DNA from: a virus
Strand: one strand, 5' to 3'
Virus record (IMG/VR): IMGVR_UViG_3300047585_000208
Coordinates: 1 to 64,000 of that record
Length of the DNA stretch: 64,000 nucleotides
The notes under the pieces are model-generated. The model was not told the DNA's origin. It did no database searches and saw only the letters and a program-made list of their open reading frames with translations. A program made the position numbers and the translations under genes. Positions within the stretch are counted from its first letter, which is position 1. The number at the start of each line of letters is the position of its first letter. Of the stretch, positions 1-54,521 are shown piece after piece.

Positions 1-288
1 GGTAACCGTGCAAGCATAGAGAGATGGGGTTCCGAGCAGGCTGCTCGGGATTCTCTGGCTACTTTGATTAAATGCTCCCGATGCTCCGATTGCTCCCGCT
101 GCTACGACTGCTCCCACTGCTACCGCTGCTCCGGCTGCTCCGACTGCTCCCACTGCTACGACTGCTACGACTGCTCCGACTGCTCCGGCTGCTCCGGCTG
201 CTCCCGCTGCTACCGCTGCTACGACTGCTCCGACTGCTCCGGCTGCTCCGACTGTTCCGAAATGGCACCGCAAAAAAATTTAGAATAA
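1..288 (+). CDS. Cysteine-rich CxxC tripeptide-repeat protein, 5' truncated by window edge
   Basis: The frame is open from base 1, with no stop before a possible TTG at 64. The upstream residues (GNRASIERWGSEQAARDSL) read like ordinary protein, so the gene probably begins outside the window. From about base 73 to 260 it encodes roughly 21 tandem Cys-x-x units (CSRCSDCSRCYDC and similar) built from a 9-bp DNA repeat alternating GCTCCGACT, GCTACGACT and GCTCCGGCT. The regular cysteine spacing suggests metal binding or a disulfide-stacked solenoid, but I know of no established function. The repeat is open in another + frame and on the minus strand as Leu-rich and Ser/Arg-rich shadows; the Cys frame is preferred because of the upstream protein-like sequence. 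Confidence 0.6.
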   Translation, partial: GNRASIERWGSEQAARDSLATLIKCSRCSDCSRCYDCSHCYRCSGCSDCSHCYDCYDCSDCSGCSGCSRCYRCYDCSDCSGCSDCSEMAPQKNLE

Positions 289-934: not shown

Positions 935-1267
935 ATGAACATTTCCAATCGCCTAACTCGCGACGTTAACATTCAAGTTACACGTCTGCACATTTATCTT
1001 GGGAACCCGCACAGTGCCGTCACTAACCCAGTTGCCCGGGCTACGTGTAAATTGCTCATTCCCGAGTGCAAAGTTCGCGCTGCCGGTGGCCAACTTGTCA
1101 TTCAAGCTGACGAAACACTCACTGCGCGATTATTTGAGCAACCCTGGACTGGTGAACTTCCACTGGCGGTTACAGAGTGGCTTAAAAGCTACAACGCAAA
1201 CCAGTCTTCAGAATTCGAGTTCCAGATGGGTATTCCCGTGAAATTCCTCAAAAACCTTCGAGGCTAA
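935..1267 (+). CDS. Small phage paralogue family protein (copy 1 of 7)
   Basis: 110 aa, ATG preceded by AAAGGAGGG. It shares the layout of the genes at 1494, 53270, 53587, 53909, 54228 and 54547: a strand with a conserved Thr/His position, then a motif like NPVA-A or CPVKLAI, a central variable strand pair, a short LP-x-(7-9)-W segment, and a C-terminal strand ending IP-x-x-FLK. Here these are NPVARAT, WTGELPLAVTEWLKSY and MGIPVKFLKNL. Proteins of this general plan (ITxEHIxxG, CPxALA, F-x-L-x-IP) occur in actinobacterial and other phages without a known role; that family link is from memory. Confidence 0.7.
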   Translation: MNISNRLTRDVNIQVTRLHIYLGNPHSAVTNPVARATCKLLIPECKVRAAGGQLVIQADETLTARLFEQPWTGELPLAVTEWLKSYNANQSSEFEFQMGIPVKFLKNLRG

Positions 1268-3173: not shown

Positions 3174-3197
3174 CCGCTCCTACTGTAACCTGTCCTC

Positions 3198-3218
3198 GGC
3201 AGAGGCGTTATATCTGCC
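3198..3218 (+). promoter_or_regulatory. Hairpin of the GGCAGA/TCTGCC family
   Basis: GGCAGA (3198-3203), loop GGCGTTATA, TCTGCC (3213-3218), in the leader of the first ubiquitin-like gene. A second hairpin, GGGGT-CTTTGC-ACCCC, follows at 3239-3254. Confidence 0.5.
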
Positions 3219-3287
3219 TTACATACAGTCTGGCTAGTGGGGTCTTTGCACCCCTGAAACTGTTTTGTAGATGCATGGAGCAAAGCG

Positions 3288-3533
3288 ATGAAGATTCTGT
3301 TGGTGCACAATGTGGGCGCTGGTTTGACCGAGAACATCGACGTTGCTGATAACTGCAATATCAAGTCGGTTATCGAATCTCGGCCTGAGCTAAATGGTTT
3401 TAACTTGTCCCGCGTCAGGATAGTCGTTCGTCGGTTGACGAATGGCCAGATTGCTTCCATTTCGGACGTGAATGGCTTCACGCCGCTGCATGAGGGTGAT
3501 CGTCTCACCTTGAATCCTGCGAGACTGGATTGA
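3288..3533 (+). CDS. Ubiquitin-like beta-grasp protein 1 (tail-altered copy)
   Basis: 81 aa; ATG nine bases after GGAG. The order is consistent with a beta-grasp fold: MKILLVHNVGAGLTENIDV (beta hairpin), NIKSVIESRPEL (helix), VRIVVRRLTNGQIAS (strands), then GFTPLHEGDRLTLNPARLD. The strand, helix and terminal L-x-EGD-x-LTL motif resemble ubiquitin-like modifiers of bacterial E1/E2/JAB systems. It is about 75% identical by eye to the copy at 3804 but ends NPARLD, because a segmental duplication replaced the original tail at CTG|GATTGA. It therefore lacks the Gly-containing tail of copy 2 and may not be conjugatable. Confidence 0.6.
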   Translation: MKILLVHNVGAGLTENIDVADNCNIKSVIESRPELNGFNLSRVRIVVRRLTNGQIASISDVNGFTPLHEGDRLTLNPARLD

Positions 3534-3639
3534 GCTTGAGTGGGAAAGCCGAGACGGACAAGCCATTCCTACAGATAGTCTAGCGACCAAGTCACTTAAA
3601 CAAGCATTACACAGGTGGGTAGAAGAAGCGGCACTGTAA
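3529..3639 (+). pseudogene. Remnant of the gene at 2973 (3' half duplicated)
   Basis: Encodes 36 residues (IELEWESRDGQAIPTDS, then ATKSLKQALHRWVEEAAL) matching the C-terminal half of the 2973 gene, with no start codon. The remnant begins inside the stop of ubiquitin-like gene 1, marking the join of a tandem duplication of a unit of about 470 bp. Confidence 0.85.
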
Positions 3640-3803
3640 TCGCTCCTACTTGCCTATATTGAGCCATGCTCTCTCGTTCGAAGCTGTAACTTGTCCTCGG
3701 CAGAGGCGTTATATCTGCCTTACATACAGTCCGATTAGCGGAGCCGCTAATCGTGGGGTCTTTGCACCCCTGAAACTGTTTTGTAGATGCATGGAGCAAA
3801 GCG
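3640..3803 (+). other. Duplicated leader of ubiquitin-like gene 2 with inserted hairpin
   Basis: Matches 3174-3287 except for two insertions: about 35 bases after CGCTCCTACT, and a perfect hairpin GATTAGCGG-AG-CCGCTAATC around 3733-3752. Contains the GGCAGA (3699-3704) / TCTGCC (3714-3719) hairpin and the GGGGT/ACCCC hairpin. No gene seen. Confidence 0.7.
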
Positions 3804-4064
3804 ATGAAGATTCTGTTGGTGCACAATGTGGGCGCGGGCGTGACTGAGAATATCAATGTCACTGATAGCAGCACTATCAAGTCCGTTATTGAATCTCGGC
3901 CGGAATTGAACGGGTTTAACCTGACCCACTTCAAGATGACTGTTCGCCGGCTGGTGAATGGCCAAATCACTCCGATCCCGGATGTGAACGGCTATACAAA
4001 CCTGCGCGAAGGCGACCGTCTCACCTTGAATCCCGCGAAACTCGAAGGCGCCTTCGCCGCCTAA
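3804..4064 (+). CDS. Ubiquitin-like beta-grasp protein 2
   Basis: 86 aa, with the same ribosome binding site context as copy 1. It keeps what looks like the original tail, LTLNPAKLEGAFAA. A lone Gly followed by AFAA is what a modifier precursor would look like if a peptidase trimmed it to expose a C-terminal Gly; the JAB protein at 7610 could do this (inference). Fold features: MKILLVHNVGAGVTENINV, IKSVIESRPELNGFNL, TVRRLVNGQITPI, LREGDRLTLNP. Genes for E2-like, JAB and E1-like proteins follow on the same strand, supporting a role as the protein modifier. Confidence 0.65.
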   Translation: MKILLVHNVGAGVTENINVTDSSTIKSVIESRPELNGFNLTHFKMTVRRLVNGQITPIPDVNGYTNLREGDRLTLNPAKLEGAFAA

Positions 4065-4095
4065 TCGGGTGAACCCTAATTGAAAACGACCGCCT

Positions 4096-4117
4096 CGGCG
4101 TAGGCTTTTATACGCCG
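4096..4117 (+). promoter_or_regulatory. Hairpin of the intergenic family (variant arms)
   Basis: CGGCGTA (4096-4102), loop GGCTTTTA, TACGCCG (4111-4117), just before the first E2-like gene. Arm sequence differs from the CGGCAGA type but complementarity and the GG-containing loop are kept. Confidence 0.5.
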
Positions 4118-4158
4118 TGTCTTTATTGCCCCCTAATTGAGCACAAGGGAGCGCTATT

Positions 4159-5634
4159 TTGTCTGACTTGCGTAGTATATTCCGCGCTGCCAAACGAATT
4201 CAGGAATCGCTACTTAAAACAAAATTTAGGCTGGCCTTTTCTGAGCTTAACATTCGAGTAGCTGACGCGACTCGGGGACTTCATGTAACAAAGTCAATTT
4301 TGGCTGGTAACGTGAAAAAGCAGCGCTTCGAAAAGTACACTGTAAAAAGGCTAACAAATTATCTCGACACTCTTTTAAACGCTATTGCTACGACTCGAAC
4401 AGTGTTATCGCAAGAGGGGCTTAAGAATGCCGAGATTCCGACGCTACGATTTATCGTTGAAGAGCTGCTTCACTCCGCATACGAGTTTAAAGGCCTGAAT
4501 GTCCATCTGGGTAACCGCCCAGGACAAACACCGACTTTGAGGCCGTACGTCAGCATAGTTACAGAACCGATTGTGCTTGAAAAAGTTCCACTTGGTCGAT
4601 TCGAGCTTCAGATTTTCACTGATACGTTAACGCAACATAACTTTACAGAAAACGTTGAAAGGTCCATTCACGCGGTTGCGCTTGACGCAAATCTGTCTTA
4701 TAAGCGCCAGTTTCCTCATCCGCACATTGATACTAGCGGCAACATATGCACGGGGGAGGGTAAAGCGCTTATTGCGCGATCGCTGCGAGAGGGTCGATTT
4801 TCAGACGCCTTTCAGCTATTGCACAGCGTTTTAAACTCTTACAACGCAAGAAGCGCCTATCAGACTATTGAGACCTGGCAGGGGGTCCGAAAAACTTGTG
4901 TGGCCTGCGGTCAAACTGAGTACGAAGAGGAAATGGTGCTGTGCCCAAGGTGCCGAACCATTCGATACTGTGCTAACTGCGTGTCTATTTGTAAAGGTTG
5001 CAGGTGTTCAACTTGTCCACAATGCTTTGTTGCATGTCGAAACTGTACAGAACCGTCATGTCTTAATTGCCGACGAAATTGTAACAGTTGCGCCCTAAGC
5101 GGGTGTGCAACATGTGTCTTTACGTGCGATCGCTGCCTCAGAGGAACTTGTAAAACGTGTCAATCGATTATTACAAACACGTGTGGGCACAATGTTTGCT
5201 CTGCTTGTGCAATAGTTTGTCTTAGTTGTAACACGATGTATTGCGCAAGCTGTAGCAAGTTTAAAATCAGCAACTGTGTAACTTGCCTGAAGCCTTGTTG
5301 TACTAAATGCGGCACAAGAAGGCCTGGGTCAAGTAACCGTACGCATACAGTTTGTCCTACTTTGATAACGCCAGTTTTACCAAGGCCCGCGCCACAACTA
5401 CAAGAGGTAGTTTTTTTTAATGCGGAGAACTTTGGTCTAGTACCGATTACAACTCCAGAACCGATAACAGAGTTACAAGCAGTTTTAGGAACTCCGATAC
5501 CTGCTAGGCTTATTGAGACCGCAGCCGAAGACTTTGATGATGAAGACGACGAAAACGACGATGATGACGAAGTTGAAAATGACGAAGACTTTGACGATGA
5601 AGATGATGAGGAGGATGACGATGAGATCGGCTAA
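4159..5634 (+). CDS. E2-like (UBC-fold) conjugating protein fused to RING/treble-clef-like Cys array, acidic tail
   Basis: 491 aa from a TTG after AAGGGAG. Residues 1-110 are helical. A UBC-like core follows (RPYVSIVTEPIVLEKVPLG, RFELQIF), with the E2 signature HPHI-x4-GNICTGEG: H187-P188-H189 and candidate catalytic C197, matching the canonical HPN-x-GxICL. From about residue 245 to 400 there are some 45 cysteines in CxxC pairs (CVACG, CPRC, CANC, CKGC, CPQC, CRNC, CTKCG), as in binuclear treble-clef or RING-like zinc modules, so E2 and E3-like parts may be in one chain. The C-terminus is a run of about 35 mostly Asp/Glu residues. First of three paralogues. Confidence 0.72.
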   Translation: MSDLRSIFRAAKRIQESLLKTKFRLAFSELNIRVADATRGLHVTKSILAGNVKKQRFEKYTVKRLTNYLDTLLNAIATTRTVLSQEGLKNAEIPTLRFIVEELLHSAYEFKGLNVHLGNRPGQTPTLRPYVSIVTEPIVLEKVPLGRFELQIFTDTLTQHNFTENVERSIHAVALDANLSYKRQFPHPHIDTSGNICTGEGKALIARSLREGRFSDAFQLLHSVLNSYNARSAYQTIETWQGVRKTCVACGQTEYEEEMVLCPRCRTIRYCANCVSICKGCRCSTCPQCFVACRNCTEPSCLNCRRNCNSCALSGCATCVFTCDRCLRGTCKTCQSIITNTCGHNVCSACAIVCLSCNTMYCASCSKFKISNCVTCLKPCCTKCGTRRPGSSNRTHTVCPTLITPVLPRPAPQLQEVVFFNAENFGLVPITTPEPITELQAVLGTPIPARLIETAAEDFDDEDDENDDDDEVENDEDFDDEDDEEDDDEIG

Positions 5635-5645
5635 TAACCTTAAGT

Positions 5646-5663
5646 TGAGTAATACATTACTCA
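5646..5663. repeat. Dispersed palindrome
   Basis: Centre TACA instead of YGCR; between E2-like genes 1 and 2. Confidence 0.9.
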
Positions 5664-5676
5664 AAAGGAAGGAATT

Positions 5677-6651
5677 ATGACAGATCCAAATGTTTTACAA
5701 GCAGCTGTTGAGCTTTTTCTTGGCAAAACGCTTGGGCCAGCAGATTTAGTAGTTAACTCGCTCATCGAATTCGAGAAGGATTATGCGCGAGCAATCAAGG
5801 CATCAAAGGCCTACCGCAGGCTTTTAGCTACCCCGGGAAAAATTGGACCGTTTGAAAAGGTTAAACGCGTTTTATCGCGGTCTGTGTTTTGTCGACAAAA
5901 TTATTCGGTGCCTTATAGGAATATCATCGCCGTTAAGCATTCGGATACGACTGCTTTGACCGCTGAGGCACTTTTAGCCGAGATGGTACAGATTTCAATT
6001 GAGTTTGCCAATTTCGGTGTTAAAAACTCGTCGTCGCGTAAGTACATCTTTGCGGACACTCCTCCAATTACCCTTAAAGGTGTTGAACTCGGCTCGTTTC
6101 AGCTTCGAATTTCTAAGGGTCGGTGTTTAAGCGCACATGCTATTACGCCGAATAAAGCTGTATACGGGAACGAACTAATCCGTAATCTCACACATCCACA
6201 CGTATGTGACAATAAGGTCTGTTTAGGCGAAGCCCAAAGCTTAGTGCACAGAGCTCTAAACGATTTAAGGTTGGCAGACGTCTTTCAGCTCGCACACTCT
6301 GTGCTTACGACTTATTCCGCGGTGTCGGCTTATCGAAAGCTAGATCACTGGACGACGGCTATTAGGCACTGTTTTAATTGCGGAAGTACCCACTATAACT
6401 CGACAGAAAAACAGTGTACTGATTGTCTACGGTTTCCTTGTTTACAGTGCATTACGGATATTAAGGGCTGTATTGAGTGTCGGCGCATAACTTGTTTTAC
6501 CTGCGGTGGTTGGCAAACGTGCTCAGTTTGTCAATGTAGAATTTGTTTAACTTGCAGTAAATCATTCACACCGACAAAAATTTGTCAAAATTGTCTTCAA
6601 AAGCCTCCAACTAAACCCAGAAGGAGAAAAGCTGCTGTGCCGGTAGCATAA
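5677..6651 (+). CDS. E2-like (UBC-fold) protein with C-terminal zinc-binding Cys cluster (paralogue 2)
   Basis: 324 aa, ATG after AAGGAAGGA following a palindrome. It shares with the 4159 protein the N-terminal helical region, the UBC core (ITLKGVELGSFQLRIS) and the E2 motif HPHV-CDNKVCLGEA: H173-P174-H175, candidate catalytic C182, with an additional C177. After the core, QLAHSVLTTYSAVSAYRKLD matches the same segment in both paralogues. The Cys cluster is shorter (CFNCG, CTDC, CLQC, CIEC, CFTC, CSVCQC, CLTC, CQNC) and ends in a basic tail (KPRRRKAAV). Probably conjugates or presents a ubiquitin-like protein; substrate unknown. Confidence 0.7.
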   Translation: MTDPNVLQAAVELFLGKTLGPADLVVNSLIEFEKDYARAIKASKAYRRLLATPGKIGPFEKVKRVLSRSVFCRQNYSVPYRNIIAVKHSDTTALTAEALLAEMVQISIEFANFGVKNSSSRKYIFADTPPITLKGVELGSFQLRISKGRCLSAHAITPNKAVYGNELIRNLTHPHVCDNKVCLGEAQSLVHRALNDLRLADVFQLAHSVLTTYSAVSAYRKLDHWTTAIRHCFNCGSTHYNSTEKQCTDCLRFPCLQCITDIKGCIECRRITCFTCGGWQTCSVCQCRICLTCSKSFTPTKICQNCLQKPPTKPRRRKAAVPVA

Positions 6652-6687
6652 CAAGGCTTATGCCTTTCTTTCGTAAAGGAATAACTC

Positions 6688-7650
6688 ATGATCACAGCTG
6701 ATGGAATTTACCTTCAGGCTGCCGGCTGGTTTAAAGCGCCCGTCGCTGACATTATTTGTGATTTTCAGCAGTTATCCCAATCCTTTGATGACTTTGAAAT
6801 AAACCTTGTCGATAAGACCATCAGTGTGGTAACCAAGTTTATTGAGATGGAAAAGATTAGGCTTGGCCGATTTCGCCTAACAATGAGGACAGCCGATATA
6901 CAGCTAGGTATCCAAGTTGTGACATCGTTGTTTAGCGTTAAGGCCTTAGACCCAAATCCACCCAGCCGCGATAAGCTTATTTTTCATCCAAACATCAATT
7001 TTCAAGGAAATGTTTGTCTTGGCTATAATGCCCAAGCAGTACTTAGTAAAATAATGGCCGATTTTCGCATTGCTGACGCTTTTGAATTGATTAATACGAT
7101 TATGCACAGCTCCAGCGCTGGGCACGGCTACGTTAAATTACAAAACTGGGTAACTCAACCCGTAGTTTGCGCTGATTGTGCTTTTAAAGAAGAACAAGCG
7201 CAGGCGCAGCGCTGCACCGGTTGTCCAACTTACTTTTGCAAACGATGCATTAATAAATGCGCTTGCGGCGGCGTTACGTGCCAGAAGTGCGTTAAGCCTT
7301 GTAAGAACTGTGGCATTAACCATTGTCAAGTTTGTCCGAAAAGTTGTGAAGGCTGCAAGAAGAAATTTTGTCCGTCTTGCACGAAAACTTGCAAAAGCTG
7401 CCCAGCCGACACTTGCGAGAATTGCCAGCTTGTTTGTGCAGTTTGCGAAGTTTTTGGTTGTAAAGCTTGTACCGTTGCGACAGAGTTGTCAAAACGGCAC
7501 TGCCACGACACTTGTACAACACAGTGTGTACGTTGTGGTCAGATTTACGCAGATGATGAATCGCCCAGCAATGTTTGTGTATCGTGTCTTGAAGAAGAGG
7601 CCATACGCGATGAGCCAAGTATTGAAGTTCAGTCCGCTAGCATGGCATAA
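6688..7650 (+). CDS. E2-like (UBC-fold) protein with long Cys array (paralogue 3)
   Basis: 320 aa, ATG after GTAAAGGAATAACTC. It lacks roughly 85 N-terminal residues present in paralogues 1 and 2 and starts almost directly with the UBC core (IEMEKIRLGRFRLTM). The E2 motif is the most canonical of the three, HPNI-NFQGNVCLG, with H100-P101-N102 and C110. The C-terminal half carries dense CxxC modules (CTGC, CKRC, CACGG, CQKC, CKNC, CQVC, CEGC, CPSC, CKSC, CENC, CAVC, CVRCG, CVSC). The 3' end overlaps the JAB gene by 41 bases, so the two are probably translationally coupled. Confidence 0.72.
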   Translation: MITADGIYLQAAGWFKAPVADIICDFQQLSQSFDDFEINLVDKTISVVTKFIEMEKIRLGRFRLTMRTADIQLGIQVVTSLFSVKALDPNPPSRDKLIFHPNINFQGNVCLGYNAQAVLSKIMADFRIADAFELINTIMHSSSAGHGYVKLQNWVTQPVVCADCAFKEEQAQAQRCTGCPTYFCKRCINKCACGGVTCQKCVKPCKNCGINHCQVCPKSCEGCKKKFCPSCTKTCKSCPADTCENCQLVCAVCEVFGCKACTVATELSKRHCHDTCTTQCVRCGQIYADDESPSNVCVSCLEEEAIRDEPSIEVQSASMA

Positions 7651-10600
7651 ATTGCAATACATGTGCCATCTCGGTGATACCGAGGTGGGCGGATTCGGTA
7701 TTTCAAAACCAGTGAAGTTGACCCACGGAACTGTCGTTCCTGAGAATTATTTCTACATCGAGGATTTTAAACTCGTTAAACAGCGCTCGACTTATGCCTT
7801 TGTTAAATTCACGGACGAAGGTATTGACGAGCACATGACTTACTGTGTGGACAATGAGATCGACCTTCAGCGCGGCATGAGAATCTGGATTCACACTCAT
7901 CCAGGCCAATCTGCACAGCCATCCTTCACTGATGAAAACACCTTTAAAGACCAAGACAGCCTAGGTCAGTGCGACTGGGCTGTGATGTTCATTTTGTCTC
8001 GAACTAACGAAACTTATGCTCGTTTACGTTTTTCAGCCGGTCCTGGCGGTCAGATTATGCTTCCTGTTGAAATTGATTGGTCCACAGTAAAAGAGAGCAT
8101 TAGGACATTTGCAAATAATATTGATGCGTACGACGCTGAATATGCTCGCTGCGTTGAGAAATCTTCCTACAGCACGGGATATGCACCGTATGGGGGAGGT
8201 GTGTCTTCGGACAAAAATTTTCCCCGTCACGCGTGGGAAAGAAATCACGCAAGCGAAAGCGGCGTCGGCACAAGCACCGTGCACGGTAAGTTTGATGACC
8301 ATGGACTCGCCTATGAAAACCGCCTCGTTAGGCATCCGAGCTCGCTTAATCGCTTGCCTCAGCAAAGTCAAGAGCCTGTTATTGCTACGCCAGCGCCCAA
8401 TACCATAAGGCTTTATCTCATTTACAACCAGATGACCAAGCAATACGGGTTTTACAAGAAAGAAGAAATTAAGAACGCGGCCATCCTCGTAAGATCACAG
8501 GGGATGAAGTTGCTTAATCGCGGAAGTTGGGACTTTCCCGATAACATCGAAGAGCGATTGGCAAAAGAAGGTAAAAAGCTTCCAAAGTTCAATTTTGAAG
8601 AAGAAGCAGAAGCTATTACTTGGGCGTCGACTAACGGAGAAAAAGTCGATCCGCACCAGCACGCTAAAACTTGCCCGTGCGAGAAGTGCTGGGAGTCGTT
8701 TAAACCAGGTAATTCAGTCAGAAAGCAGCAACTTCACCTTGTCATGCTAAAGTTAGCTAGGCGCTATGAGTTCAGAGACGCTACACAGATGATTGAACTC
8801 GATAATAGCGATCTCAGCTATGACGATTTTGGTACTTGGGAATTTGACGAAATTATCAAGACATTCCCGACTTGGGATATCCAAGATGGCAGTGGAGCTT
8901 ATTTCAGGGCAACTGATTGGGCTAATAAACACGGACGAAAGGTATTAACTACTCAAACGGTTAAGGCAATTGAGTCATCAAAGGGCTGGTTAGAGGCTGA
9001 TCGGTATTATCTGACCTGGATTCCGACTGTCAGTCAGTTTCAATTCTTGTCGTATGACCAGCTTTGTGAGACTTGGCACCATGTGGTCGAAGATGAAACT
9101 TCTTGGCCAATAGTTAAGAGCAATTGGTACATTAAGCCAGACAGCCTTCCAAATATCCAGAGCTGGCAAGCCGCTGAAGAAGAAGTTGCGCACAGTTGGG
9201 GTCGTGCCCATGGTGAACTGATTGGCAATACCGGTAATTACGATCCGTTTAGAGGCGGTTACGAAGCAGCCAAAACGGCTAAAGAAACTCTGACAGTTAA
9301 TACGGACATGCGTCGGCTTTTTCTGACTTACGATCCAATTTTCAAAGACTATTGTTTCATTAACGAAACAATTCTTAATACTCGTTGGCAAACTTGTTGC
9401 ACAAAGTCGCTTCATCCGCCAGCCGTGCACAGTAGCTGGGATATTCCGGTTTCGATAAATGAAACTGCTTTGAAGTGGACTAAAGACGAACTCGATGAGG
9501 CTATTGCCTGGGGTCGGCGATTCGGCACTGAGATTACAGAAGTTGGCAATTACGATCCTTGTAAGTTTAGACATACTAACAGCTCTAGCGCCACTATTAC
9601 TAAGCTCTTTCTGACTTATCGTGGCGCATTTGACGATTATGCTTTTCTGACAGACGGCCAGCTTAAGGATTATTGGGTGCGTTGGCAACATATGCCGAAT
9701 CAGCATCCAAAGGTCAACAGTGTTTGGGAAATCAGGGGTAACAGCAGCGTAACGCACGTTTACGGAAAAAGTCAATTGGTAGACGCCAGAATTTGGGCTA
9801 ACACCCACGGCAAATCTTTCTTTATGGACCCGCTTGATCCGTTTGAAGCCACGTACAAAAAGCCAGTTACCGTTGCGACAATCCCAGATTTACCGACAAT
9901 CCGATTTCTAACTTACAGCCCGATACTGCAGGATCACGAGCTTATCACTAATTCCATGCTTGAAGCTCGTTGGCGCAACAACGAAAAGAAACCACATCAT
10001 TATCCAGTTGTTGACAGCGTGTGGGATATGGCCGCGCCAGAGCATCCTAACGTAAACTGGCGGCGCTGGGCTAAAGATAAAATTGAAGATGCTAGAACCT
10101 TTTGTAAGGAAAACGGTAAACAAGTCATTACGGCTTGCGTTGACCCTTACCGCGAGTTTTACGAATTACCAACTAAGCCAAAAGCGAGTTACCCTACACT
10201 CGTAAACCCAATTAGTTACTATTTGACTTGGTTGCCAGTTCGAGTAGAGTTTAAGTTCTTGCTAGCAAACGACCTTATGGCGGCCAGCGGCACAAAGGGT
10301 GTGTATGCCCCGACTGTTATCTCCGTTTGGTTGTTTAGTGAAAGTCGAAAGCTGTCTTTAAGCGTCACTACGTTCTCTAAAGCCGAAACTGCGGAAGACT
10401 GGGCTAATGAAAATGGTGTTTGCATTAAAGCCATTTCAACCGAAGAAGCTTTAATCGAAGCTAAAACAGCGCTAAGTTCTGGAGCGCAAGTCTCTACTGA
10501 AGTTGTTCTAGTAAAACCGGAAATTACTGCGGCTATTGACGAAGCGTTATCTGCCCCCATAACCCCCGCTACTTCGACGACAGCTGGACCCTCGTCAGTC

Positions 10601-11179
10601 GATCTGGGTGGCGATATTCAGTTGTTTTATTTGGCTTGGGTTCCAGCTCAGCAAACTTTCAAATTTCTATCGCCACAAGAAATTATTGACATTTGCACCG
10701 ATTCAGGCCAAAATGACCCGCACATCCGAAGTAGCTGGATCTTTAGCACAGTTTATTACGGAACCCTTTTAGACTACAGCGTCGACGAATATGAATTAGC
10801 CGAGAATTACGGCAAAGAACACGGGGAATTTTATGAATTTTGCACTTTAAAGGAAGCGCTTCCAGAGAGCATCATGATTGTTGAGTCTATTGACAAAGAA
10901 GCAGCTGAAGCGCTTATACTCGCAGGGTTAGACGACACCTTTGCGGAAGAGTACTTAAAAACGCTTGACAAAGCTGAGGCTGAGGAAAAGCCTAAGGTTG
11001 TCGGGCTTTTACCCTATGTCCCAGAAAAGGAACCAGAAAATGCAAACAATGGAAGCATCAACGATGTCGGAATTAAAGGCGAAGTTGCCGCCGGTCATGG
11101 ACTCGACACCGGCTGCGGCTTTGGAGGAGGGTACGGCAGCCCAAACTCCCAATGGGGTCCCGGCTACGAATACGACTAA
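7610..11179 (+). CDS. JAB/MPN+ (JAMM) isopeptidase with eight C-terminal repeats
   Basis: 1189 aa. The frame is open back to 7178, but the upstream part is the shadow of the E2 Cys array; ATG 7610 has GAAGAAGAGG ahead of it. Residues 1-150 form a JAB domain with all JAMM zinc ligands: E25 (GDTEVGGF) and HTHPGQSAQPSFTD with H95, H97, S105 and D108, predicting an active deconjugase or modifier-processing protease. From about 264 to 1040 there are eight degenerate modules (starts near 264, 372, 463, 566, 663, 762, 867, 1003) of the type YLTW-x-P-x4-FKFL-x5-L followed by S-x-W-x-x. A Gly-rich tail (CGFGGGYG) ends the chain. The repeats may bind substrate. Confidence 0.8.
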   Translation: MSQVLKFSPLAWHKLQYMCHLGDTEVGGFGISKPVKLTHGTVVPENYFYIEDFKLVKQRSTYAFVKFTDEGIDEHMTYCVDNEIDLQRGMRIWIHTHPGQSAQPSFTDENTFKDQDSLGQCDWAVMFILSRTNETYARLRFSAGPGGQIMLPVEIDWSTVKESIRTFANNIDAYDAEYARCVEKSSYSTGYAPYGGGVSSDKNFPRHAWERNHASESGVGTSTVHGKFDDHGLAYENRLVRHPSSLNRLPQQSQEPVIATPAPNTIRLYLIYNQMTKQYGFYKKEEIKNAAILVRSQGMKLLNRGSWDFPDNIEERLAKEGKKLPKFNFEEEAEAITWASTNGEKVDPHQHAKTCPCEKCWESFKPGNSVRKQQLHLVMLKLARRYEFRDATQMIELDNSDLSYDDFGTWEFDEIIKTFPTWDIQDGSGAYFRATDWANKHGRKVLTTQTVKAIESSKGWLEADRYYLTWIPTVSQFQFLSYDQLCETWHHVVEDETSWPIVKSNWYIKPDSLPNIQSWQAAEEEVAHSWGRAHGELIGNTGNYDPFRGGYEAAKTAKETLTVNTDMRRLFLTYDPIFKDYCFINETILNTRWQTCCTKSLHPPAVHSSWDIPVSINETALKWTKDELDEAIAWGRRFGTEITEVGNYDPCKFRHTNSSSATITKLFLTYRGAFDDYAFLTDGQLKDYWVRWQHMPNQHPKVNSVWEIRGNSSVTHVYGKSQLVDARIWANTHGKSFFMDPLDPFEATYKKPVTVATIPDLPTIRFLTYSPILQDHELITNSMLEARWRNNEKKPHHYPVVDSVWDMAAPEHPNVNWRRWAKDKIEDARTFCKENGKQVITACVDPYREFYELPTKPKASYPTLVNPISYYLTWLPVRVEFKFLLANDLMAASGTKGVYAPTVISVWLFSESRKLSLSVTTFSKAETAEDWANENGVCIKAISTEEALIEAKTALSSGAQVSTEVVLVKPEITAAIDEALSAPITPATSTTAGPSSVDLGGDIQLFYLAWVPAQQTFKFLSPQEIIDICTDSGQNDPHIRSSWIFSTVYYGTLLDYSVDEYELAENYGKEHGEFYEFCTLKEALPESIMIVESIDKEAAEALILAGLDDTFAEEYLKTLDKAEAEEKPKVVGLLPYVPEKEPENANNGSINDVGIKGEVAAGHGLDTGCGFGGGYGSPNSQWGPGYEYD

Positions 11180-11921
11180 GCCAGAACTTACCAGAAATTC
11201 CCGTCAGCGAGACATCATCCCACCCGCCAAGCTCGCTGAGGTACATGCCCTGGTCATCGGTGTTGGCGCAGTCGGTCGGCAGGTGGCTTTAATGCTTGCC
11301 GCTGTCGGTACTCCAGAAGTAAGTATTTACGACGACGACATTGTTGCGATCGAGAATCTCGGTCCTCAAGCTTACTTCCAACAAGATATTAATATCCCGA
11401 AGGTTGTTGCGACCAAAGAGTTGATGAGGTTAGTCAATCCAGACATTACTTGCACAGCAAAGCAAGACCGGTTCAAGCGGTCGACGGAGTTTAAGGTCAA
11501 AGATGGGCGGCAGCTTTGCGTTTTCTGTTGCGTTGACGATATCGAGGTTCGAAAACTCCTTTGGGAGCGCCTCAAGGATCAAATTGATTTCTGGGTCGAT
11601 GGCCGAATGTCCGCAGAGATTTACGAAGTTTTGAGCGTCAATACGCCTCGCGAAGAGAAGGCGCTGGCCAAGATCAAAACCGAGAACTTGTTTACGACTT
11701 TTCGGGAGATCAAGTACAAGCCTTACGAAGATACCTTCTTTGCGAAGAATGAGGCATTCCCGGTTTCCTGTACTGCAAAATCGACTGTATTTACTGCCAA
11801 CATCTGCGCCGGCAACATGATTCAGCCGTGGTCAATGTATCTGCGTGGCGTGTCCACGGAAGATGAACTTGATGCGATCGAGTCGCACAAAGTGCTGATG
11901 AAGGCGGCTAAAGCCGAATAG
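11040..11921 (+). CDS. E1/ThiF-like adenylating enzyme
   Basis: 293 aa from ATG 11040, seven bases after AAAAGGAA; later in-frame ATGs at 11064 and 11097 are possible. It overlaps the JAB gene by about 140 bases in another frame. The Rossmann/ThiF signature is GVGAVGRQ (74-81), acidic IYDDD (96-100), ENLGPQAYFQQD, K121, CCVDD (163-167), and a candidate thioester Cys C244 in FPVSCTAKSTVFTANICAG. The arginine of the usual NLxRQ finger is replaced by proline. In this context it would activate the ubiquitin-like proteins at 3288/3804 for transfer to the E2-like proteins. A PRTRC- or Bil-type system is the nearest known analogy, not an identity. Confidence 0.82.
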   Translation: MQTMEASTMSELKAKLPPVMDSTPAAALEEGTAAQTPNGVPATNTTKPELTRNSRQRDIIPPAKLAEVHALVIGVGAVGRQVALMLAAVGTPEVSIYDDDIVAIENLGPQAYFQQDINIPKVVATKELMRLVNPDITCTAKQDRFKRSTEFKVKDGRQLCVFCCVDDIEVRKLLWERLKDQIDFWVDGRMSAEIYEVLSVNTPREEKALAKIKTENLFTTFREIKYKPYEDTFFAKNEAFPVSCTAKSTVFTANICAGNMIQPWSMYLRGVSTEDELDAIESHKVLMKAAKAE

Positions 11922-46847: not shown

Positions 46848-47741
46848 ATGCGAAAAGCGTTTACGCTCATCGAGATGCTGGTCGTCATTGCGATCATCGC
46901 CATCCTGATGGGGCTATTACTCCCGGCTATCCAGTACGCCAGAACAGCTGCGGCGTATACTCAAACGTCGAACAATCTCAAGAACATCGGATTATCTGGG
47001 ATCAACTTCCACGGAATGTACAAATTCCTTCCGTACAACGGTACGTCAACAAGCGCGACTTGGACGCTCTGGACACCCCAAGCGCCGAACAACTGGGCTA
47101 ATAGCCTAGATGTTGAATCTGGTTCTTGGTGTTTCGCGCTATTACCGTTTATGGATCAAAGGCAACTTTGGCAGCAGGTTGTACCGCCACCTAATGTGCC
47201 CACGCCAACGAGCGCTACACTGACTTACTGGCAGCCGCCTAACACAATCGCGTCAACTGTTTTGGCGGTGTTTAATGACCCAGAACGCAACCGAACAGGA
47301 ACGTATGTTTACGGCTCTAACATCCTCGCTTCGACGGATTATGCCATAAACACCTGGGTCAATTCTCCTACTGGCACGCTCAACGATCCTGACGCGCGAT
47401 TGACGCTGCTTGGCATCCGGGATGGTACCAGCAATACAATCTTCGCTGGAATAGCGGGGATGGCGTCGGCTGATTACCGTAACGCGTTTCCAAGCCAGTG
47501 GAATCAGACTTGGTGGCTTGGCGGACTCGGCGGCTCTGGTCGAAATTCAACCGTTCTCCAACCGGACGGCGCTACAACGGCATCGGCAGCTGGTCAGTGG
47601 GGCGGCCCATATCCTGGAGCTTGCCCATTCGTCTTCTGCGACGGCTCAGTCAGATCGATTGGATATGGGCTAATTACAGGCACACAGCTTCAGGCGCTCA
47701 TGACACCCAATGGAAACGATCAGGCGCCTTCAATACCGTAA
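46848..47741 (+). CDS. DUF1559 prepilin-type (type II secretion pseudopilin-like) protein
   Basis: 297 aa, ATG after AAAGGAGCAAAGTT. N-terminal class III prepilin signal ([16 protein letters not shown]) with Gly-type cleavage site neighbourhood KAFTLIE, and the DUF1559 pattern of planctomycetes ([49 protein letters not shown]). These are hugely expanded in planctomycete genomes; presence here implies transfer from the host. Export and pilin-like assembly are expected, its role in a phage is unknown. Confidence 0.85.
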
Positions 47742-53269: not shown

Positions 53270-53557
53270 ATGCTTGTGTTAATTAAGGTCACTCACAAAC
53301 TGCTCAATAGTGGTATCCGAAGTAGTTGTACCGAGTGCGCAATTTCTTTGGCGATTAAGCGTCTGGTGAAAAGGCCAGAGCTTGTTTCTGTTGGGATTTC
53401 AAAAATTAATCTTGGGCTCAGCGAAGCAATTGAATTACCGCTTAACGCTTATGTGTGGCGGCAACTCTACGATAAGGGGCTTCGTGTTGGCCCCACGTCG
53501 TTTGAGCTATTTATCCCGGATAACTTACTCAAACCAGAAGTGCTTAAAGCAAATTGA
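53270..53557 (+). CDS. Small phage paralogue family protein (copy 3 of 7)
   Basis: 95 aa, ATG after AAAGGAGGAGTTTC. IKVTHKLLNSGIRSS, CTECAISLAIKRL, ELPLNAYVWRQLYDKGL, RVGPTSFELFIPDNLLK. Starts a run of five paralogues, each preceded by a palindrome and an AAAAGGA-type ribosome binding site. Confidence 0.72.
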   Translation: MLVLIKVTHKLLNSGIRSSCTECAISLAIKRLVKRPELVSVGISKINLGLSEAIELPLNAYVWRQLYDKGLRVGPTSFELFIPDNLLKPEVLKAN

Positions 53558-53572
53558 GTAATGCGTTACTCA
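53555..53572. repeat. Dispersed palindrome
   Basis: TGA stop of paralogue copy 3. Confidence 0.95.
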
Positions 53573-53586
53573 GAAAGGACGATTAA

Positions 53587-53874
53587 ATGAGAATTGTTAT
53601 CACGCATAAACACATCCGCAACGGGGTCAAAGCTGACCCAGCTAATCATCCGCTCAAAAAGGCCGTTGATGACATACTTCGACTCGGTGTCTACGTCAGA
53701 GTCAAACAAGCTTCATTGTTCCTTTACAAAGAAGAACCAACTGAAAAAACACAACCATGGCGGGTTATACCGCTGGCAAGGTCTATTGTCAACTGGGTCA
53801 AAAACTTCGATCTTGGATTCAATCACAGCCCCAGAACGGTCTGGATAAGTTTACCAAAAGAAGTTTTAAAATAA
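53587..53874 (+). CDS. Small phage paralogue family protein (copy 4 of 7)
   Basis: 95 aa. ITHKHIRNGVKADPANHPLKKAV replaces the CPxxLA motif with HPLKKAV; ARSIVNWVKNFDLGFNHSP and TVWISLPKEVLK end it. Palindrome upstream at 53555. Confidence 0.72.
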   Translation: MRIVITHKHIRNGVKADPANHPLKKAVDDILRLGVYVRVKQASLFLYKEEPTEKTQPWRVIPLARSIVNWVKNFDLGFNHSPRTVWISLPKEVLK

Positions 53875-53876
53875 AC

Positions 53877-53894
53877 TGGGCAGCGCATTACTCA
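53877..53894. repeat. Dispersed palindrome (left arm decayed)
   Basis: TGGGCAGCGCATTACTCA; right arm intact. Confidence 0.8.
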
Positions 53895-53908
53895 AAAGGA
53901 AGGCCTTA

Positions 53909-54202
53909 ATGCAATTTACCATCACACAAGAACACATCGATCACGGGGTCAAAAATAACAGCTTAGCCAACCCAATTGCGTTGGCTATTAATGAAAGCCT
54001 GCGCGATGAGTTTTTCATAAGGATGGGCTGCAGTGTGTTAGGCGTTTTTTCTAAAAATGCGACCGTCAACTTGGCATTGGTATGGGTAGAGCTACCAACT
54101 GACATTAAAGACTGGTACGCAAAATATGGCTTAGGGCTAAAGTGCGGTCCAACGACCTTCGATTTGCGCATTTCAGCTGAGTTTCTAAAGCCAATTAAGT
54201 AA
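53909..54202 (+). CDS. Small phage paralogue family protein (copy 5 of 7)
   Basis: 97 aa, ATG after AAAAGGAAGGCCTTA. ITQEHIDHGVKNNS, LANPIALAINESL, LPTDIKDWYAKYGLGL, TTFDLRISAEFLKPIK. The C-terminal FLKPIK-stop is identical to the next copy, and its TAA is the left arm of a palindrome. Confidence 0.75.
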   Translation: MQFTITQEHIDHGVKNNSLANPIALAINESLRDEFFIRMGCSVLGVFSKNATVNLALVWVELPTDIKDWYAKYGLGLKCGPTTFDLRISAEFLKPIK

Positions 54203-54213
54203 GGCATTACTCA
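54196..54213. repeat. Dispersed palindrome (left arm altered)
   Basis: TAAGTAAGGCATTACTCA; supplies Lys-stop of copy 5. Confidence 0.85.
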
Positions 54214-54227
54214 AAAGGAGGGCCTTA

Positions 54228-54521
54228 ATGAAGATTACTATCGCTATCACTGAAGAACACATTAAACACGGAATAAGAAAAAGTGCAGCTGACTGTCCAG
54301 TTAAACTTGCGATCGATGAGGTAGTGCGGTCGAACGTGCTTGTGCGTGCTGGGTATTACCTAACAATGCGAGAGCTGGGCAGTGTTGACAGTACCAGAGT
54401 TTTTGTGGCTCGGCTAGTTGAACTACGTTGCTGGATGGGCCGTTTTGATTGCGGCCTCCCCGTTAAACCAATCACATTTGAAATAGATATACCAAACTGG
54501 TTTTTAAAGCCAATTAAGTAA
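54228..54521 (+). CDS. Small phage paralogue family protein (copy 6 of 7)
   Basis: 97 aa, ATG after AAAAGGAGGGCCTTA. ITEEHIKHGIRKSAADCPVKLAIDE; nearly duplicates copy 7 at the DNA level over much of its length (VVRSNVLVRAGYYL against VVRSNVLVRVGNCL), so a recent tandem duplication. Confidence 0.75.
   Translation: MKITIAITEEHIKHGIRKSAADCPVKLAIDEVVRSNVLVRAGYYLTMRELGSVDSTRVFVARLVELRCWMGRFDCGLPVKPITFEIDIPNWFLKPIK

Follow-up and report, generated by a model that had tools for sequence, protein, structure and literature searches.

A predicted Planctomycetota-type ubiquitin-like conjugation cassette carried, and probably expanded, by a tailed phage

Gene content and genomic setting of the cassette

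The stretch of DNA analysed here (hereafter the window) comprises the first 64,000 nucleotides of IMGVR_UViG_3300047585_000208 (G000), a linear viral record of 137,890 bases. Positions 3288-11921 of its + strand hold a cassette encoding two beta-grasp ubiquitin-like proteins (Ubls), three E2-like proteins, a JAMM/JAB protease and a single-domain E1-like enzyme (Table 1), all seven with intact reading frames in the ORF list. The seven consecutive + strand genes reported in a first-pass annotation are therefore all present, with the JAB start corrected and the E1 starting at either 11040 or 11049. The same annotation placed them next to tail structural genes, which was not borne out: the nearest recognisable one is Baseplate_J, at 33.8 kb, and a search for informative profile matches among the cassette-flanking genes of the window returned none. 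Since G000 encodes a terminase large subunit, a DNA polymerase, a helicase, a primase and Baseplate_J, it is assigned to a tailed phage. Its host is probably a bacterium of the Planctomycetota; a DUF1559 and N-methylation pilin-like gene at 46848-47741 is of a kind that we take to be typical of these bacteria, in agreement with the placement of the E1 in the tree described below.

Table 1. Features of the predicted conjugation cassette, with positions in the window
Feature	Position	Strand	Length	Description	Evidence or remark
Ubl tandem duplication	3237..4045	+		Gives both Ubls	Copies 3237-3529 and 3753-4045, spacing 516
Ubl1	3288..3533	+	81 aa	Beta-grasp, ubiquitin-like	Ends ...NPARLD, without C-terminal Gly; duplicate of Ubl2
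Ubl2	3804..4064	+	86 aa	Predicted conjugatable-modifier precursor	Ends ...NPAKLEG/AFAA
E2a	4159..5634	+	491 aa	UBC-like (HPHIDTSGNIC, predicted catalytic Cys 197)	TTG start; tblastn 2e-33 to Planctomycetota E2
E2b	5677..6651	+	324 aa	UBC-like (HPHVCDNKVC, predicted catalytic Cys 182), short Cys-rich tail	AF2, Foldseek, tblastn 5e-22
E2c	6688..7650	+	320 aa	UBC-like (HPNINFQGNVC, predicted catalytic Cys 110), Cys-rich tail	tblastn 2e-28
JAB	7610..11179	+	1189 aa	JAB/JAMM metalloprotease (E25, HTHPGQSAQPSFTD)	Prok-JAB E 0.003
E1	11040..11921	+		E1-like, ThiF/MoeB fold, single adenylation domain	ThiF E 4e-20; overlaps JAB gene

The ubiquitin-like proteins

The duplicated copies are 293 nt long and 81% identical, and the two proteins, each a single domain, are 74% identical in alignment. 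The AF2 model of Ubl2 adopts a beta-beta-alpha-beta-beta-beta topology (pLDDT 75, pTM 0.63), and its best fold matches in the PDB (Foldseek, probability 0.99-1.00, E 0.002-0.01) are to Caldiarchaeum ubiquitin, which ranks first, MoaD, ubiquitin and SUMO; the structure modelling proposed in the first-pass annotation thus points to a beta-grasp fold. Ubl1 is homologous to a Planctomycetota Ubl (tblastn E 2e-7). Pfam, PHROGs and NCBIfam recognise neither the Ubls nor the E2s of the window.

The tail of Ubl2 (PAKLEGA) fits the pattern [PS]x[KR][VIL][DEQ]G-x, and the JAB is predicted to cleave it after the glycine, whereas the tail of Ubl1 (PARLD) does not fit. The earlier claim of two Ubls therefore stands as regards fold and duplication and fails for one copy as regards conjugation, as Ubl1 lacks the required glycine and would be barred from the usual chemistry. 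Even so, Ubl1 appears to be kept for some role, because its dN/dS against Ubl2 is 0.15 (dS about 1).

The E2-like proteins

E2a, E2b and E2c share an HP[HN]...C-x-G motif followed by a Cys-rich tail, and E2c is devoid of the N-terminal helices found in the other two. E2a bears a long Cys-rich tail and an acidic C terminus. In an alignment of 22 sequences, the P, C and G of the motif and most of the tail cysteines are invariant, with a fixed CxxC-rich tail. A profile of 22 phage E2s retrieves E2 enzymes almost exclusively from the PDB (E 0.004-0.3), aligning with them over HPN...C and the next helix. In the AF2 model of E2b, most of residues 100-215 form a core with pLDDT 80-96, the best Foldseek match being UBE2W (probability 0.90, E 0.08), and the top matches are enriched in E2s. 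Each of these scores is weak when taken alone, but the three lines of evidence agree in favouring an E2 fold, so that the claim of three E2-like proteins with candidate catalytic cysteines is upheld by the profile and structure comparisons that had been suggested for it. When the profile was rebuilt with Planctomycetota members, the PDB E2 matches were lost and mostly Zn domains were retrieved instead.

The proteins had also been described as E2-RING-like fusions. The Cys-rich tails are indeed there, but their likeness to RING is confined to spacing: the CxxC ligands are all cysteines, with no His ligand as in C3HC4 or C4HC3 cross-braces, and the matches to RING, ZZ and FYVE are weak (E 0.01-1). 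These tails could possibly act as a built-in E3. The three E2s form one clade (support 95/89, 98% of bootstrap trees), for which reason they most likely multiplied within the phage's own lineage, although the long branches of all three call for caution. Among the loci examined, no second case of three E2s in one locus was found.

The JAB protease and the E1-like enzyme

The JAB gene is best started at about 7610, inside the 3' end of E2c (41 nt of overlap). The ORF start at 7178 was rejected, since relatives align from ...LRFSPxAWAKL onwards and the longer ORF translates the tail of E2c out of frame. The intact JAMM motif noted earlier is confirmed, E25, H95, H97, S105 and D108 all being invariant in 15/15 relatives; HxH..S..D was kept in 73 of the 74 JAB matches of the first set. 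The protein is 42% identical to a Planctomycetota JAB (tblastn E 5e-40). Its C-terminal part consists of about eight divergent repeats of ~100 aa each, recognised by eye and partly by motif, and most relatives have far shorter JABs, a few reaching 460-660 aa.

The E1 is 43% identical to its Planctomycetota counterpart (tblastn E 1.5e-56), and ThiF, UBA6, MoeB and UBA5 are its closest relatives in the PDB. ThiF is also its best curated model, with a score far below every ThiF/MoeB cut-off. Its ~290 aa contain one ThiF stretch and no separate Cys domain. The cysteine singled out in the first-pass annotation is C244 when counted from 11040 and C241 from the alternative ATG at 11049, and it belongs to 16 columns that are invariant across the E1s of the window, crAss and Flavobacterium phages.

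A chromosomal operon type in Planctomycetota

Every component of the window cassette has direct tblastn matches to Planctomycetota proteins, with E values from 2e-7 to 1.5e-56. A search of bacterial genomes for the closest E1s gave 80 loci (L098-L177), nearly all from Planctomycetota, and most of those on a long enough contig display the order Ubl-E2-JAB-E1; in six Planctomycetota genomes searched, one to four strong E1 copies are present. These chromosomal operons resemble the phage cassette in having Ubl, Cys-rich E2, JAB and E1 in the same order on one strand, and in the Zn-ligand pattern of the E2, the Ubl tail, the JAMM motif and the E1 cysteine. The tail [PS]x[KR][VIL][DEQ]G, followed by Ala or another residue, is found in 50/51 chromosomal Ubls. 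In the loci L190 and L191, Ubls are fused head to tail in a polyubiquitin-like manner, with the boundary PLKV[EQ]G/A repeated. The phage differs in its additional copies, with three E2s and two Ubls (one without Gly), and in the roughly eight JAB repeats.

A further difference lies in the neighbourhood. An AAA+ protein with its AAA domain in the second half (14 loci) and DUF1257 (9 loci) accompany the chromosomal cassettes, and 9 phage cassettes have an AAA+ homolog nearby, according to domain profiling of representatives. Neither gene was found when sought in G000. In keeping with a proposal made for FtsH ternary systems (PMC7159879), such cassettes may plausibly work together with an unfoldase that acts on the tagged proteins.

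In the E1 tree, the window sequence and those of L024 and L027 fall inside a 100/100 clade that also holds the chromosomal genes, and are separated from the main clade of phage E1s; as the window E1 sits on a long branch, its exact place is unsure. The Planctomycetota subtype is present in 25 viral contigs, all with the four genes in the same order and several well away from the ends of contigs of 165-181 kb, an outcome that bears out the gene-order search proposed at the outset. Recurring as it does in these 25 related viral contigs and in dozens of Planctomycetota loci, the gene arrangement is more than chance. To judge from these comparisons, the window cassette belongs to the Planctomycetota operon type as a phage offshoot. 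The three E2s and the Ubl pair, a combination that the first-pass annotation did not recognise, are special to this phage, but the cassette does not stand alone, the operon type being widespread.

Related cassettes in other phages

Single window proteins used as queries against viral contigs and named phages gave nothing useful, and neither did the first E2 alignment. Relatives surfaced only through a degenerate DNA pattern for HP[HN][IV]xxxGN[IV]CxG, which led to four phage contigs, all with E2-JAB-E1, and then through E1 alignments, which yielded 80 viral loci. The combined set amounts to 52 groups at 90% E1 identity, 45 of them with a JAB. Besides the Planctomycetota subtype, dozens of other phages carry a more remote family that keeps the Ubl-E2-JAB-E1 order. 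In its E2-bearing loci, a Ubl of 65-115 aa usually lies immediately upstream of the E2, and most of these Ubls end in K-x-G-G plus one or more residues.

One named member is crAss001, in which gp79 (Ubl with an extension), gp78 (E2-like), gp77 (JAB) and gp76 (E1) are annotated as hypothetical, hypothetical, metalloprotease and thiamine biosynthesis, respectively; Flavobacterium phage Fpv1 has the same order. Across INPHARED, the E1 was found in 80 records and the crAss-type E2 in 45. The cassettes of Crassvirales and Flavobacterium phages share with the window the gene order, the invariant E1 residues, the JAMM motif and an E2-like C-x-G, but their E1 is only ~25% identical, their E2 has HSH in place of HPH and no Cys-rich tail, and their Ubl is prolonged at the C terminus by a long extension. 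Only a moderate profile match joins the degenerate crAss-type E2 to the other E2s. Window-type and crAss-type Ubls could not be connected by profile comparison, and the case for their homology is therefore built on gene position and overall pattern. Xanthomonas phage PhiXhv-12 encodes a Ubl, an E2 with a Cys-rich tail and an E1, its Ubl ends exactly at ...KASGG, and no JAB is detectable in its record; Erwinia phage Ep032 is a near-identical member of the same lineage.

Comparison with known Ubl systems

By its defining features, the cassette is not Bil, PRTRC or CBASS. Like the window, BilABCD is a four-gene Ubl/E2/JAB/E1 set whose Ubl is matured by the JAB; however, BilA consists of two fused Ubl domains, BilB has a CEHH motif, and BilD combines two adenylation domains, one inactive and one active, with a Cys domain (PMC11354881), whereas the window Ubls are single-domain proteins and its E1 has one ThiF stretch. 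PRTRC and Iyer type 6d operons likewise have separate Ubl, JAB, E1 and E2 genes, often on mobile elements, but the 6d E2 is devoid of the classical His, and a helical fifth gene and a JAB-N domain are present (PMC1779556). Members of PRTRC pass the cut-offs of PRTRC_ThiF and PRTRC_A; the window E1 scores 34.8 bits where PRTRC_ThiF requires 144.75, and PRTRC models do not match the window JAB. In CBASS, Cap2 is an E1-E2 fusion accompanied by the Cap3 JAB and a CD-NTase; the E1 and E2 of the window are separate genes and the Cap3 model scores 12.9 bits against 200.

The vWA-MoxR "FtsH ternary" system (PMC7159879) pairs planctomycete Ubl conjugation with a double-AAA+ ATPase, and many relatives of the window cassette lie near an AAA+ protein of similar layout. 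It differs in that its Ubl is fused to the E2 and that it has a RING of its own, a caspase-like effector and vWA-MoxR, features not seen here; the window Ubl and E2 are separate. The Caldiarchaeum/Asgard ubiquitin operon has a JAMM-trimmed pro-Ubl that is handed on to an E1, an E2 and a small RING protein, and differs in that the RING is a separate gene, the terminus is GG and the operon is cellular and archaeal; in Caldiarchaeum, processing of pro-ubiquitin by the JAMM protease precedes its use by the E1 (PMC5654768). In its presumed working, the cassette may be likened to Bil and to the archaeal operon.

Proposed mechanism and alternative explanations

A complete phage-encoded Ubl/E1/E2/JAMM set, as first proposed, is favoured by profiles and fold models, by catalytic residues that do not vary and by a gene order conserved in phages and Planctomycetota. 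Our main reading, to which we give a probability of about 0.8, is that a tailed phage carries and has expanded a Planctomycetota-type Ubl conjugation operon, with chemical steps that we infer as follows. The JAB would clip Ubl2 after ...AKLEG; the E1 would adenylate the exposed glycine with ATP and then take Ubl2 on Cys241; Ubl2 would pass to the HP[HN]...C cysteine of one of the three E2s, whose fused Zn-binding tail, different in each, would bring the E2~Ubl to its target as a built-in E3 or adaptor. The JAB might also strip the tag, and Ubl1 would probably serve as a non-conjugatable partner occupying the E1, E2 or JAB. Sequence features support this order, with JAB maturation before E1 and E2 transfer. 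On account of the Ubl tails, the poly-Ubl boundaries, the JAB-less Ubl ending in ...SGG and the Caldiarchaeum precedent, maturation of the Ubl is most likely the work of the JAB, which may also take the tag off again; the argument from a JAB-less Ubl with exposed GG comes from one lineage (PhiXhv-12/Ep032). Against the main reading stand the modest E2 fold match, a predicted mature tail with a single Gly (LEG) instead of GG, the E1 without a separate Cys domain, and the AAA+ and DUF1257 genes not found in G000.

The purpose can be stated less firmly. At slightly under even odds, the cassette would tag or strip host proteins during infection, among them components of the homologous Ubl system that the host itself possesses. 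A doubtful though possible rival is that the cassette serves chiefly as a counter-weapon against that host system, in which case the JAB strips host adducts, Ubl1 blocks host E1 or E2 and the phage E2s divert the cascade. The multiple E1 copies of Planctomycetota genomes would supply its target, the constrained fold and lost Gly of Ubl1 would suit it, and Bil offers a precedent for a bacterial Ubl system that can act against phage, according to PMC12135933 (citing Hor et al.) and PMC11354881. Yet the phages keep all E1, E2 and Ubl catalytic parts, which an inhibitor would not require in full, the Ubls of other phages are normal and come without a decoy, and there is no sign of a defensive role for the Planctomycetota operon. 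That the phage instead modifies its own replication, recombination or virion proteins, in order to time or regulate infection, seems unlikely. Many other phages do have the cassette among primase, helicase, ERF, Sak4-like and PD-(D/E)XK genes, and lambda tail assembly pairs a Ubl-like with a JAB domain (PMC1779556), but in G000 the replication genes are ~60 kb away, position alone is a poor guide and similar cassettes sit on chromosomes.

A sulfur-carrier or cofactor pathway of the ThiS/MoaD-ThiF kind, the E2-like proteins having another job, would account for the ThiF model being the best for the E1 and for the MoaD likeness of Ubl2. It is nonetheless very improbable, considering that no thiamine, molybdopterin or sulfurtransferase genes were seen beside the cassette, that the E1 falls so far under the ThiF/MoeB cut-offs, that invariant HP[HN]..C E2s and a JAMM protease are regularly adjacent, and that the Ubl precursors need trimming; a thiamine or molybdopterin role was set aside. 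Hardly any credence is given to a chimeric contig containing host DNA or to a decaying, functionless insertion. The cassette does lie within 12 kb of the end of a linear record and its E1 groups with bacterial genes, but relatives recur in viral contigs, also far from contig ends, GC content is continuous, frames and catalytic residues are kept and the Ubl pair is constrained; an assembly artefact was likewise set aside.

Significance for phage biology

Eukaryotic viruses hijack ubiquitin; phages are not generally known to supply an entire conjugation cascade. Phage Ubl cassettes were nowhere found described in the open literature searched, a body that did not include Burroughs 2011 on prokaryotic RING/E2 systems; nothing there joins crAss-like phages with ThiF, and papers on crAss-like phages and ubiquitin are, by title, apparently unrelated, one of them dealing with Bil. 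An overview comparing 224 jumbo phages contains no UBL or JAB match, and its two "ubiquitin" passages concern other matters. Phage carriage of Ubl cassettes hence looks widespread and undescribed in the literature searched, and special to the window phage are its three monophyletic E2s, a duplicated Ubl with a Gly-less first copy and the 1189-aa, repeat-bearing JAB. A speculative extension, which we hold to be rather improbable, is that complete Ubl tagging is a general, unrecognised takeover tool exchanged with hosts, from Crassvirales to Planctomycetota phages, with three target-specific E2/E3 fusions and a Gly-less Ubl that inhibits the host's homologous system in this case.

If active, the cassette would provide a reversible protein-tagging system for phage biology and would link phages to a large uncharacterised Planctomycetota operon family, and natural variants (JAB-less Ubls with exposed GG, poly-Ubls, E2 triplication) would be useful for studying the evolution of the ubiquitin pathway. 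Because similar sets are present in many phages, among them crAss001, a gut phage available in culture, the targets of such cassettes can now be tested there.

Ubl leaders and the C-terminal region of the JAB protein

Each of the two tandem Ubl genes of the window is preceded by a duplicated, strongly conserved non-coding leader (see the table). The 51 nt located immediately 5′ of the start codon are identical between Ubl1 and Ubl2, and this identity in the sequence hints at the existence of either a regulatory element or a gene conversion event. Further along the cassette, the JAB domain is followed by divergent repeats, for which no family match was found.

Variant cassettes in related loci and named phages

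Among the related loci, L187, L188 and L194 carry an additional E1 upstream of the main cassette, accompanied in L194 by an additional JAB. L190 and L191 contain tandem Ubl domains in polyubiquitin-like precursors. In the Xanthomonas phage PhiXhv-12, whose cassette genes are annotated as hypothetical and thiamine biosynthesis, no JAB is detectable within its record.

Coordinates of the features described
Feature	Source	Position	Description
Ubl1 leader	window	3183-3287	non-coding
Ubl2 leader	window	3684-3803	non-coding
JAB repeats	window	8405-11000	about eight, of ~100 aa each
PhiXhv-12 locus	L213	745-4621	GG-ending Ubl, Cys-rich-tailed E2, E1
Fpv1 (Flavobacterium phage) locus	L011	3671-5963	JAB gene in two parts through insertion of an opposite-strand endonuclease gene
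Low-complexity repeat	window	64-288	Cys/Ser-rich (CSDCSRCYDC...), by left contig end
Small ORF pair	window	935-1267, 1494-1811	5′ of cassette
Pilin-like protein	window	46848-47741	phage-borne, DUF1559/N-methylation
Four adjacent ORFs	window	53270-54521	95-97 aa each

Other genes of the window and the record

The small ORFs preceding the cassette appear paralog-like by eye, and the run of four short ORFs possibly represents tandem paralogs. The pilin-like protein belongs to a type that is typical of Planctomycetota. Transposase/TnpB-like genes occur several times in the full record (G000), which also encodes a Ro60/TROVE protein and a tRNA-His guanylyltransferase.
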